Positions 1,592-16,871 of a DNA stretch of 64,000 bases are shown piece by piece. Below the pieces are notes generated by a model, which was not told the origin of the DNA, did no database searches, and saw only the letters and a list, made by a program, of their open reading frames with translations. The position numbers and the translations under genes were made by a program. The DNA comes from Flavobacterium sp. (lineage in GTDB: Bacteria; Bacteroidota; Bacteroidia; Flavobacteriales; Flavobacteriaceae). Where the stretch lies: contig JAPLEX010000015.1 of NCBI GenBank assembly GCA_026390995.1, positions 33,197-97,196 of the forward strand, given 5' to 3'. The first letter of the stretch is position 1, and every line of letters starts with the position of its first letter.

Positions 1592-3463
1592 TTATCTTCC
1601 CATATAAATTAACAACACCGAAATATCGCTGGGCGAAACCCCACTAATGCGGGATGCTTGCGAAATAGTAACTGGGCGTATCTGAGTTAATTTTTGGCGG
1701 GCCTCGATTGACATCGATTTAATTTTGGAGTAATCAAAAAATTCGGGGATTTTCACATCCTCCAAGCGAGTGAGTTTTTCGGCGTTGTTGCGTTCTTTTT
1801 CTATATAACCCGAGTATTTTACTTGTATTTCAGCCTGCTCCAACACCTCTTCGTCCAACTGATTTGTGGTTGCGTATTCCTTTACTTTATCTAATGTCAA
1901 CATGTCTTGCAAGTCTATTTGAGGCCTTGAAAAAAGTTTGAACATTTTGTCTGATTGTGACACCAAAGCTGAATTTTTATTGGCTAATAACACATTTGCT
2001 TCGGCGGCTGTTATGCTGGTGTCTTTGTAAAAAGCAACCATCTGTTCTGACTCTGTGCGCTTGTATTCTACGCGGCGCAAACGATCCTCAGAGGCCAATC
2101 CTATCGCGTGTGATTTGGGTGTCAATCTAAAATCGGCATTGTCTTGACGCAACAAGGTGCGAAATTCTGCACGTGAAGTAAACATGCGATACGGTTCTTC
2201 TGTACCTTTTGTAATTAAATCATCAATCAAAACGCCAATATACGCCTCGTCTCTTTTTAGGATAAAGGGTTCTTTACCTTGTACGCTAAGCGCGGCGTTT
2301 ATACCCGCCATCAAGCCTTGCGAAGCAGCTTCTTCGTAGCCTGTTGTGCCATTAATTTGACCCGCAAAAAACAAGCCTTTAACTAATTTGGTTTCTAAGG
2401 TGTGTTTTAATTGTGTGGGCGGAAAATAATCATATTCGATGGCGTAACCTGGTCTAAAGAATTTTACTTTTTCAAAACCCGCCACCGAACGGAGCGCTTT
2501 GAATTGCACGTCTTCAGGCAAGGAAGTAGAAAACCCATTTACATAAACCTCTACAGTATTCCAGCCTTCAGGCTCAATAAATAATTGGTGTCGTTCTTTG
2601 TCGGCAAAGCGATTAATTTTATCTTCAATAGACGGACAATAACGTGGCCCCAAACTCTTAATTCGGCCATTAAACATAGGTGAACGATCAAATCCTTCTC
2701 GTAAAATATCATGTACGTCCAACGAAGTGTAGGTCATGTGACATGATTTTTGAATTATCAACGGCTTGGTGAGGGGTGAATAAGAAAATTTTGCAGGACG
2801 TTCATCCCCTTTTTCTTCGTTCATTTTAGTGTAATCTAGTGATCTTCCATCCACACGTGGAGGCGTTCCGGTTTTCATTCTACCCGAGGTAAATCCGGCG
2901 GCTATCAAATCTTCGGTAATTCCAAAAGAAGCGCTTTCCCCTGCTCTGCCGCCGCCAAATTGTTTTTCGCCAATATGGATTAAGCCATTCAAAAAAGTGC
3001 CGTTGGTGAGCACGACTGTCTTGGCTTTAATTTTTATACCCAACACCGTCGTAATCCCTGTAACAACTCCGTTTTCTATTAGCAAGCCATTTGCCATCTC
3101 TTGGTAAAAATCCAGATTTGGAGTTTGCTCTAACATCAACCGCCATTCTTCTGCAAAGCGCATGCGGTCACTTTGCACCCGTGGCGACCACATCGCAGGG
3201 CCTTTTGACTTATTGAGCATCTTGAATTGTATGGCTGTTTTATCAGAAACAATTCCAGAATAGCCGCCCATCGCATCTATTTCACGCACAATTTGGCCTT
3301 TTGCAATGCCCCCCATTGCGGGATTACAAGACATTTGCGCTATGTTTTGTAAATTCATTGTCACCAATAGTGTGGAGCAACCCATATTTGCGGCAGCCGC
3401 TGCGGCTTCACAACCCGCATGACCCGCGCCAACTACAAGAACATCATAAACTTCTTTGAACAT
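1592..3463 (-). CDS. mnmG: tRNA uridine-5-carboxymethylaminomethyl(34) synthesis enzyme MnmG (GidA)
   Basis: DVLVVGAGHAGCEAA, MSCNPAMGGIAKGQIVREIDAMGG; start trimmed to MFKEVYDVL, since the ORF extension overlaps ybeY. Confidence 0.97.
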   Translation of the reverse strand: MFKEVYDVLVVGAGHAGCEAAAAAANMGCSTLLVTMNLQNIAQMSCNPAMGGIAKGQIVREIDAMGGYSGIVSDKTAIQFKMLNKSKGPAMWSPRVQSDRMRFAEEWRLMLEQTPNLDFYQEMANGLLIENGVVTGITTVLGIKIKAKTVVLTNGTFLNGLIHIGEKQFGGGRAGESASFGITEDLIAAGFTSGRMKTGTPPRVDGRSLDYTKMNEEKGDERPAKFSYSPLTKPLIIQKSCHMTYTSLDVHDILREGFDRSPMFNGRIKSLGPRYCPSIEDKINRFADKERHQLFIEPEGWNTVEVYVNGFSTSLPEDVQFKALRSVAGFEKVKFFRPGYAIEYDYFPPTQLKHTLETKLVKGLFFAGQINGTTGYEEAASQGLMAGINAALSVQGKEPFILKRDEAYIGVLIDDLITKGTEEPYRMFTSRAEFRTLLRQDNADFRLTPKSHAIGLASEDRLRRVEYKRTESEQMVAFYKDTSITAAEANVLLANKNSALVSQSDKMFKLFSRPQIDLQDMLTLDKVKEYATTNQLDEEVLEQAEIQVKYSGYIEKERNNAEKLTRLEDVKIPEFFDYSKIKSMSIEARQKLTQIRPVTISQASRISGVSPSDISVLLIYMGR

Positions 3464-3477
3464 AGATTTATATTTTC

Positions 3478-3897
3478 TTAGTGTTCCACGTGAAACATTG
3501 CAAGTTTTTCGTTTTCTTTTTGACGCATAAGCTGTTCGTCGGCTTCTGCTTTGTCTTTGTAGCCGCAATAATGCAAAACACCGTGAATAATTACCCTAAG
3601 TAATTCATTTTCAAATGATTGATTAAATATTTCGGCGTTTTCCCGCACCCGCTCAACCGAGATAAATACATCCCCACTCAATTCGTTGCCTAAAGAATAA
3701 TCAAAACTAATAATATCTGTGAGCGTGTCGTGTTGTAAATAATTTTGATTTAATTCTAGCAAATAGGCGTCGTCACAAAAAACATAGGCGAGTTCTCCTT
3801 CTGATTTTTGTTCAGAGGCAATTACCCGGGCAATCCAGCTTTCTATTGCCGATTCGTTGGGTAATTCAAACTCGGTTTCGTAATTAAAACTAATCAT
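3478..3897 (-). CDS. ybeY: rRNA maturation RNase YbeY
   Basis: HGVLHYCGYKDKAEADEQLMRQKE zinc-binding motif (HGxLHxxGxDH-like). Confidence 0.95.
   Translation of the reverse strand: MISFNYETEFELPNESAIESWIARVIASEQKSEGELAYVFCDDAYLLELNQNYLQHDTLTDIISFDYSLGNELSGDVFISVERVRENAEIFNQSFENELLRVIIHGVLHYCGYKDKAEADEQLMRQKENEKLAMFHVEH
3482..3497. promoter_or_regulatory. parS: parS site TGTTCCACGTGAAACA
   Basis: Exact match to the parS consensus; overlaps the last codons of ybeY (…MFHVEH*). Confidence 0.92.
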
Positions 3898-13615: not shown

Positions 13616-15796
13616 TTATTCTTTTCGTCTAATAAAATGAAAATCCAATTGTTTTTTTACTAAATCGGCGGTTTTTACTTTTACATATACCTCGTCGCCG
13701 AGCTGCAAAAGGGCTTTTGAAATTTCACCCACCAAGGCATATTGTTTTTCATCAAAAGTATAATAATCATCTTTAATTTCTCTGATTCGGCACATACCTT
13801 CGCATTTATTGGAACTAATTTCTACATAAATTCCCCATTCGGTTACCCCAGAAATTACGCCCAAAAACTCTTCGTCTTTGTGATTTTGCATGTATTTCAC
13901 TTGCATGTATTTGATGCTGTCGCGTTCGGCATTGGTAGCTAAACTTTCTCGATTGGACGAATGCGCACATTTTTCTTCATAAATCTCAACCCCGGCCGAT
14001 TTTCCTCCATCTAAATAAAATTGCAACAAACGGTGCACCATCACATCGGGATAACGACGAATGGGCGAAGTAAAATGTGTATAATAATCAAAAGCTAAGC
14101 CATAATGACCAATATTATCTGTAGTGTATTTGGCTTTACTCATGGTGCGAATCGCAAGGGTATCGACCATGTTTTGCTCTTTTTTACCCACCACTTCACT
14201 GAGTAAATTATTCAAAGATTTTGAAATAGAATCTTTGGATTGAAAATTAAGTCGGTACCCAAACTTAGCCACAAGAGTTTGTAAATTGATTAATTTATCT
14301 TCATTGGGTTCGTCGTGCACACGATACACAAAAGTTTTCTTTTGTTTCCCAATAAACTCAGCCACTTTTCTGTTGGCCAACAACATGAATTCTTCGATGA
14401 GGTGATTGGCGTCTTTGGCAATTTTAAAATACACACCTTCGGGTTCTCCTTCGGCATCGAGATTGAATTTTACTTCTACTTTATCAAAGGAAATGGCCCC
14501 ATTTTGCATGCGTTTTTTGCGCAAAATTTTAGCTAATTCATCTAAAGTAATGGTGGCGTGAACCAGCTCGTCAGAAACCGTATACGTATTTCCGGTGATT
14601 GAAATTTCAGTTGGAATGGTATTCGATTTGGTTTCAATAATGTGCTGCGCTTCTTCATAAGCAAAACGTTGATCGGAATAAATGACCGTACGACCAAACC
14701 ACTGGTTTACTACTTCGGCTTTTGTATTTATCTCAAAAATTGCAGAGAAGGTATATTTTTCTTCGTGCGGACGAAGTGAACAAGCAAAATTAGATAACAC
14801 TTCGGGCAACATCGGAACCACACGATCTACTAAATAAACAGAAGTGGCCCGATTATAGGCTTCTTCATCTAAAGCGGTGCCTTCTTCTAGGTAATAAGAA
14901 ACATCGGCAATATGAATCCCAATCTCGTAATTTCCATTTTCTAAGACTTGAAACGACAAGGCATCGTCAAAATCTTTGGCATCTTTTGGGTCAATTGTAT
15001 AAGTTAAAACCTTCCGCATGTCGCGGCGTTTTTTTATTTCACTTTCCTGAATTGACGTATCTAATTGTTCGGCATAGGCTTCTACTTCAGGAGGAAAATC
15101 ATAAGGCAAACCGTATTCGGCTAAGATGGCATGAATTTCGGTATTGTGTTCACCTGGTTTACCAAGCACTTGAATCACTGATCCAAACGGACTATCCGCT
15201 TTTTTTGGCCAATCTTCTATTTTTACCACCACCACATCACCTTGTTCGGCCTCCCCAATTTTAGCTAGTGGAATAAAAATATCGGTATACATTTTGGGAT
15301 TGGCGGTACTCACAAAAGCAAAATTTTTCTGGATATCAATCACACCCACAAATTCTGATTTGGCGCGTTCAATCACTTCAATTACTTCCCCTTCTGGTTT
15401 TTTTCCTCTTCGGCGATTGTAGACATAGACTTTTACTTTGTCTTTATCTAAGGCGTGATTTAAATTTGGTGTTGGAATAAATACATCGTCCTCAAAATCA
15501 GGGCTTATAAAATAGGCTGTTTTTCGAGTAGTCATGTCAATCACTCCCTCGTAGTAATCTTGACTCACAGCTTTAACTAAGTACTTCCCTGGCTCGGTTT
15601 CAATAATTACTTTTTGGGCAGCCAGTACTTTTAAATCTAAAATAATTTCGTTTCTTCTTTTGGTATCTGTAACCTCTAAAACGGCTGCAATTTGTTTATA
15701 GTTAAACGATTTATTCGCGTTTTGAGAGAGTATTTTTAGAATTTTTTCGGAAAATGAGTTTGGTTTCTTTCCTACTTTATGGAGTTTCTTTTTCAT
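13616..15796 (-). CDS. rnr: ribonuclease R
   Basis: TIDPKDAKDFDDALS, HYGLAFDYYTHFTSPIRRYPDVMVHRLL, C-terminal S1 domain. Confidence 0.97.
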   Translation of the reverse strand: MKKKLHKVGKKPNSFSEKILKILSQNANKSFNYKQIAAVLEVTDTKRRNEIILDLKVLAAQKVIIETEPGKYLVKAVSQDYYEGVIDMTTRKTAYFISPDFEDDVFIPTPNLNHALDKDKVKVYVYNRRRGKKPEGEVIEVIERAKSEFVGVIDIQKNFAFVSTANPKMYTDIFIPLAKIGEAEQGDVVVVKIEDWPKKADSPFGSVIQVLGKPGEHNTEIHAILAEYGLPYDFPPEVEAYAEQLDTSIQESEIKKRRDMRKVLTYTIDPKDAKDFDDALSFQVLENGNYEIGIHIADVSYYLEEGTALDEEAYNRATSVYLVDRVVPMLPEVLSNFACSLRPHEEKYTFSAIFEINTKAEVVNQWFGRTVIYSDQRFAYEEAQHIIETKSNTIPTEISITGNTYTVSDELVHATITLDELAKILRKKRMQNGAISFDKVEVKFNLDAEGEPEGVYFKIAKDANHLIEEFMLLANRKVAEFIGKQKKTFVYRVHDEPNEDKLINLQTLVAKFGYRLNFQSKDSISKSLNNLLSEVVGKKEQNMVDTLAIRTMSKAKYTTDNIGHYGLAFDYYTHFTSPIRRYPDVMVHRLLQFYLDGGKSAGVEIYEEKCAHSSNRESLATNAERDSIKYMQVKYMQNHKDEEFLGVISGVTEWGIYVEISSNKCEGMCRIREIKDDYYTFDEKQYALVGEISKALLQLGDEVYVKVKTADLVKKQLDFHFIRRKE

Positions 15797-16439
15797 GAGG
15801 TCTTTTCAATCAGGTTTGAAAATTACAAATAAACCAAGTAGTAATCTTGGTAAATAATTAGAATTAGTATAAAAATAACTTTTCATTACAGTAGAGATTA
15901 GCTACACAGATTTAAATAATTCAAGAAATTTTTAAAATCTAATCATAGCATAGTTTTCAACAACTAGTAAAAACATTAAAAATAAAAGAAATTTAAAATT
16001 TAATTTATGGTGGTTATTATAGGGTGTTCATAAGGCTGATAAATTTATTTTTATTTACTTGTATTTTAAGTTAAAAGAAGTTAATAATAGGTTATCAACA
16101 CAACTTATATAAACTAATTCCTTGATTTTAAACCTATTTTAAAACACTATAAACAACTGTTCATAAGTAAAAATAAAGTAGTTTTGTAAATAAGTAGAGA
16201 CCCTTTTTTATGTGTATAAACAACTGTTTTCTGGGAATAACTAAACAATAAATTCCATTAACTTTTGTTGTTTTTTCGGTTTCTATTTTGGATTACACAT
16301 TTTTATAACACAAACAAGAAAAAGTTCTAATTTTCTATCTTTAGTTATAAACAAAAGCTGTTGATTTTACCTCCCGTAGAAATCAACGACTTAGAAAAAA
16401 TATCAACATAACGCTTTTATAAACAAAAAACACGCCACT
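15797..16439. other. candidate replication origin (oriC)
   Basis: 640-bp AT-rich non-coding gap; DnaA-box-like TTATCAACA (16092), TTATGAACA on minus strand (16025, 16158), TTATAAACA (16345, 16417), identical 14-mer TATAAACAACTGTT at 16148 and 16215; gene polarity flips here. Confidence 0.55.
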
Positions 16440-16871
16440 ATGAAAATCGCCATTGGAAACGACCACGCCGGACCCGCCTATAAGCAAGCTATTGTAAATC
16501 ATTTAGAAAATTTAGGCCATACAATCATCAATCACGGAACCGACAGTTTTGACAGTGTAGATTATCCCGATTTTGGGCATTTAGTGGCCCAAGACGTGGC
16601 CCATAAAATTGCCGATTTTGGTATCGTAATTTGTGGATCAGGAAATGGCATTGCCATGACCGCCAATAAACACCAAGACATTCGTGCCGCTTTGTGTTGG
16701 ACCAAAGAAATTGCTTTTTTAGCTCGCACCCACAACGATGCAAATGTATTGAGTATTCCCGCTCGATTCACCGCCATTCCCCAAGTGATAGAAATGGTAG
16801 ACACCTTTTTGCAAACGCCATTTGAAGGAGGCCGACACGCCCAACGGGTAGCTAAAATTTCGTGTACATAA
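16440..16871 (+). CDS. rpiB: ribose-5-phosphate isomerase B
   Basis: MKIAIGNDHAGPAYKQ, ICGSGNGIAMTANKHQDIRAALC. Confidence 0.95.
   Translation: MKIAIGNDHAGPAYKQAIVNHLENLGHTIINHGTDSFDSVDYPDFGHLVAQDVAHKIADFGIVICGSGNGIAMTANKHQDIRAALCWTKEIAFLARTHNDANVLSIPARFTAIPQVIEMVDTFLQTPFEGGRHAQRVAKISCT

Follow-up and report, generated by a model that had tools for sequence, protein, structure and literature searches.

Does the intergenic region between rnr and rpiB serve as the chromosomal replication origin (oriC) of this Flavobacterium? The window analysed here, a stretch of 64,000 bp, belongs to contig C89 in a 2.16 Mb draft genome of 98 contigs, and the closest named relatives of its rpiB are Flavobacterium, with 90% identity in locus L003. 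A first-pass annotation had placed a candidate origin in an AT-rich gap of about 640 bp between the two genes; the gap indeed spans 643 bp (15797–16439) at 23% GC. It separates the divergent genes rnr, encoding ribonuclease R (13616–15796, minus strand), and rpiB, encoding ribose-5-phosphate isomerase B (16440–16871, plus strand), a divergent arrangement that is conserved in relatives, and none of the listed reading frames of at least 80 amino acids lies inside it. We consider it very probable that this gap is the replication origin of the chromosome, a reading supported by a cluster of DnaA boxes, a conserved architecture, a GC-skew minimum in relatives and the placement of parS-like sites.

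The gap contains five exact matches to the 9-mer TTATNAACA, plus TTTTCAACA and TTATACACA. The window holds seven TTATNAACA matches in total, five inside the 0.64-kb gap and two in the remaining 63 kb, corresponding to 7.8 per kb within the gap versus 0.03 outside it. Shuffling the gap by dinucleotides gave 0.19 TTATNAACA matches on average and reached five in none of 5000 cases. By both the shuffles and the window counts, the clustering of DnaA boxes in the gap exceeds chance. The five box-like 9-mers named by the first-pass annotation were all found at their expected places: TTATGAACA as box 2 (16025–16033, minus strand) and box 4 (16158–16166, minus), TTATCAACA as box 3 (16092–16100, plus) and TTATAAACA as box 6 (16345–16353, plus) and box 7 (16417–16425, plus). 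Two further boxes had been missed, namely TTTTCAACA as box 1 (15954–15962, plus) and TTATACACA as box 5 (16211–16219, minus). The latter has one mismatch to the Escherichia coli box, and relatives carry a TTATNAACA-type box at this position with equal spacing. A weaker box, ATATCAACA (16400–16408, plus), corresponds to CTATTAACA in the genus consensus.

In an alignment of 42 gaps, boxes 1 to 6 were strongly conserved (box 1 being well conserved), and so were GGTTATTATAG (16012–16022, plus), which directly adjoins box 2 and is a candidate unwinding-module sequence, and the motif TTTTGGATTAC (16286–16296, plus) between boxes 5 and 6. The alignment column of box 7 was poorly conserved. The AT-rich region expected of a candidate duplex-unwinding site is present in the gap, as judged by AT content and 60-mer stability: the stretch adjoining box 2 (15957–16021), in which 50-bp windows are 88–90% AT, and a second stretch (16036–16098), which ranks with the least stable 60-mers in the window, may both act as unwinding regions. 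The identical 14-mer TATAAACAACTGTT that had been reported twice does occur at 16148–16161 and 16215–16228 (both plus strand), with starts 67 bp apart. As the two copies overlap boxes 4 and 5, respectively, and an exact 14-mer repeat is also present in 50 of 2000 gap shuffles (2.5%), this repeat is weak when taken alone and we did not count it as independent evidence.

The arrangement recurs among relatives. At every locus where both genes were found, rnr and rpiB point away from each other, and most of the gaps measure 0.4 to 1.5 kb. Counting all 9-mers in 77 homologous gaps with no preset motif returned TTATTAACA, TTATCAACA and close variants as the top 9-mers, where TTATTAACA was observed 96 times against 7.6 expected and TTATCAACA 73 times against 2.3 expected. 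In order, orientation and spacing, the boxes follow one scheme in most Flavobacterium gaps, lying about 0, 71, 137, 203, 256, 390 and 462 bp from box 1, and the window array matches this layout, with box 5 as TTATACACA. The pattern GGTTATTATAGNGTGTTNATAA, covering the box-2 element together with its adjoining box and allowing up to two mismatches, had a single match each in 16 of 34 genomes, 15 of them about 0.2–2.3 kb upstream of rnr; its reversed control pattern had one match. Within 20-kb loci, the densest box cluster lay at most 3 kb upstream of rpiB in 49 of 58 rpiB loci. Among 100 sampled 20-kb stretches of the complete relatives G010 and F. covae, one contained four strict TTATNAACA matches within 650 bp and none contained five. 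This four-box stretch belongs to G010 and its count equals that of G010's own gap, so that in G010 the gap stands out by its conserved layout and not by box count alone.

The conserved position and architecture have exceptions in G009, G011, Myroides and the short-gap species. In G009 and G011, both members of the genus, and in a species with a 168-bp gap, the gene neighbourhood is kept and the box array is absent from the gap. The rnr–rpiB pair is therefore not a universal origin marker, and the origin in such array-less lineages (G009, G011, G022 and similar loci) may have shifted elsewhere. Taken by locus, L108, L110, L019, L021 and L112, together with G009, G011 and G022, keep the gene pair with a gap of 168–472 bp that lacks the array. 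The rnr–rpiB interval is longer where an extra reading frame intervenes. Frames of 435–537 amino acids lie inside it in L010, L049, L051, L069, L079, L029, L031 and L032; the box array is retained despite the inserted frame in L010, L051, L069 and L079 and absent in the Myroides loci. A shorter frame of about 79 amino acids, presumably DUF2007-like, lies between rnr and the array in most relatives (L084, L093, L105 and others) and is missing in the window as well as in several close relatives. A Flavobacterium-type region of rnr, boxes and rpiB was also found on a contig titled as a Bifidobacterium breve MAG (L043), which is probably misbinned.

Gene orientation and parS-like sites provide further context for the gap. 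The first-pass annotation had described mainly minus-strand genes, including tRNA, to its left and mainly plus-strand genes to its right. Both trends held, as by recount 10 of 12 genes to the left are on the minus strand and 38 of 47 to the right on the plus strand (Fisher P = 7 × 10−5), but the sole tRNA of the window is on the plus strand and thus lends no support to the left-hand pattern. The parS sites claimed at 12–14 kb lie 14.2 and 12.3 kb from the gap: CGTTCCACGTGAAACA (1576–1591, plus) and TGTTCCACGTGAAACA (3482–3497, plus) are situated at the two ends of the mnmG (gidA) reading frame (1592–3568, minus). When we searched 20 whole genomes for GTTYCACGTGRAAC with the reversed pattern as a control, all matches fell beside mnmG and the control had zero. 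The matches in the organism's own genome are the window sites at 1576 and 3482. Across 13 Flavobacterium genomes with a long gap, all perfect parS-like matches were located at mnmG, about 10–20 kb from rnr; in the short-gap G022, the sites are about 70 kb from rnr. The array-less G009, G011 and G022 retain parS-like sites at mnmG.

Because a single window cannot locate an origin, we sampled complete relatives in 20-kb pieces, covering about 35% of G010 (same genus, 3.45 Mb in one contig) and 24% of F. covae CP067379 (3.40 Mb). The cumulative G–C of G010 declines from dnaA (position 25) to a sampled minimum at 1,006–1,044 kb, where rnr lies at 1,037–1,040 kb, and climbs until about 2.6 Mb. The sampled minimum of F. 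covae is at 955–1,020 kb, with rpiB at about 990 kb. These intervals, of 38 kb in G010 and 65 kb in F. covae, contain or touch rnr–rpiB. The sampled skew minimum of both complete relatives is thus found at this gene pair and away from dnaA, not elsewhere as the first-pass annotation had envisaged for the case against its proposal. A corresponding change was visible locally in 58 relatives (10 kb per side), where mean skew was −0.077 to the left of the gap and +0.042 to the right, with the right exceeding the left in 51 (sign-test P = 2 × 10−9, which is not corrected for kinship). The profile of G022, covering the first half of its genome, had a weak, flat minimum at about 0.6–1.1 Mb and was uninformative.

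No skew switch marks the gap in the window itself (left side −0.030, right side −0.038), and we do not use the skew of the window as support for the origin. The cumulative skew minimum within the window is near 49–50 kb. A block at 24–34 kb, beginning about 8 kb from the gap, has a GC content of only 27–37% and contains a polysaccharide-flippase-like gene. This block may be a recently acquired island and may distort both the local skew and the cumulative minimum of the window.

The absence of dnaA from the window was also confirmed, as dnaA was identified above the family cut-off on another contig (G000:C9:25119–26513). The 4.4 kb around this gene (within 1.5 kb) contain no TTATNAACA. The distance from dnaA to the skew minimum is about 1.04 Mb in G010 and about 0.9 Mb in F. 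covae, where dnaA is at 1,887 kb. Flavobacterium DnaA proteins carry the motif DRDHATVLHAC, which we take to correspond to GRDHTTVLHAC in E. coli; several outgroups carry the same change relative to E. coli. In the structure of E. coli DnaA domain IV, the equivalent loop contacts the box. Judging from this change at the box contact, a shift in the box preference of Flavobacterium DnaA relative to E. coli is plausible. In the same order, the 0.3-Mb genome G049 (L123) yielded no DnaA match above the family cut-off; DnaA absence has been reported for some endosymbionts.

Could the array have a role other than initiation? The boxes might control the divergent rnr and rpiB promoters through DnaA or another factor, or serve to titrate DnaA in the manner of E. 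coli datA, with the origin located elsewhere. The position of the gap between two divergent promoters would suit such a regulatory role, as would the relatives that keep the gene pair without boxes. However, a promoter pair does not need a fixed multi-box architecture, parS is nearby and in two complete relatives the skew minimum falls at rnr–rpiB, which together make a merely regulatory gap highly unlikely.

Even less likely is an origin that in this organism has shifted within the region, for example towards 49–50 kb of the window, leaving the gap as a relic. The in-window skew minimum and the seeming loss of the array from the gap in some relatives would fit such a shift, but the array in this gap is intact, not one TTATNAACA occurs between 33.2 and 64 kb, and the low-GC block may distort the skew on which the shift is based. 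The faintest chance falls to an origin adjoining dnaA, as in many bacteria. This is the default expectation from other phyla, yet dnaA is distant from the skew minimum in both complete relatives, its surroundings here are devoid of TTATNAACA, and oriC is commonly far from dnaA in Bacteroidetes, according to work citing DoriC (PMC4755523).

If the rnr–rpiB gap is the origin, initiation may follow the established DnaA–oriC pathway of DnaA loading, melting, helicase loading and bidirectional forks. For this organism, we infer origin activity, DnaA binding, the melting site, helicase loading and ParB binding. DnaA, encoded on another contig, would bind the array, in which seven or more TTATNAACA-type boxes stand in a set order. 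The DnaA oligomer would then melt the AT-rich DNA beside box 2 (15957–16021), the site of the conserved GGTTATTATAG, or alternatively the stretch between boxes 2 and 3 (16036–16098). After melting, the helicase would load and two forks would depart in opposite directions. ParB would segregate the new origins from the parS sites around mnmG, 12–14 kb away.

The proposed origin resembles several known systems. Like E. coli oriC, it combines several 9-mer DnaA boxes with an AT-rich region alongside and does not adjoin dnaA; its main box is TTATNAACA rather than the E. coli TTATCCACA, and its neighbours and arrangement differ. In the basal unwinding system of Bacillus subtilis, DnaA-trios have been described (PMC6669920, PMC8287927), and the likeness here is a box-proximal TAG (3'-GAT-5') beside box 2, near AT-rich DNA. 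However, this one proximal GAT is followed by non-consensus trinucleotides, the spacer is 2–3 bp as opposed to a reported peak of 10–13 bp, and the origin here is not beside dnaA. As only a single trinucleotide fits, we do not regard the element at box 2 as a canonical DnaA-trio. The 5' side of box 3 reads 3'-GAT-AAT-AAT-5' in the window and is not conserved in relatives.

Closer to the present host, the Bacteroidetes oriC regions catalogued in DoriC, such as that of Prevotella intermedia OMA14 (PMC4755523), are multi-DnaA-box regions at a GC-skew switch far from dnaA, which the gap resembles by its boxes and, through the two sampled relatives, by its skew; they have another gene context (here rnr–rpiB) and another host family. 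In the same genus, the skew switch of F. enshiense R6S-5-6 was placed at gltX (PMC9867689), a gene located 7 kb left of the gap in the window. That study names gltX itself, whereas the present data indicate the neighbouring rnr–rpiB gap and resolve single boxes. Using Ori-Finder, mnmG was named the origin of a related flavobacterium (PMC12843772). These published gltX and mnmG placements agree with the rnr–rpiB region. Our literature search found no paper describing the rnr–rpiB box array, nothing relevant on rpiB with oriC and nothing on a Flavobacteriaceae oriC far from dnaA; DoriC may already list the site for other Flavobacterium. Since an oriC distant from dnaA is already known to be common in Bacteroidetes, the rnr–rpiB site is an ordinary case, well supported and finely resolved.

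For the genus Flavobacterium, the result amounts to a base-level origin map, and the conserved box type predicts the target of Flavobacterium DnaA. Some assemblies in this genus, such as that of PMC9867689, have been rotated to dnaA. In two complete genomes, dnaA is separated from the skew minimum by about 1 Mb, and coverage-based growth-rate estimates and replichore analyses depend on the correct origin point. More tentatively, and with doubt outweighing confidence, Flavobacterium origins may be defined by the distinct box type TTATNAACA, a fixed seven-box layout and a GGTTATTATAG unwinding element, and may have been lost from rnr–rpiB in G009, G011 and the short-gap species while parS stayed at mnmG. 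If true, origin loss with parS retained would allow the natural relocation of an origin to be tested within a single family.
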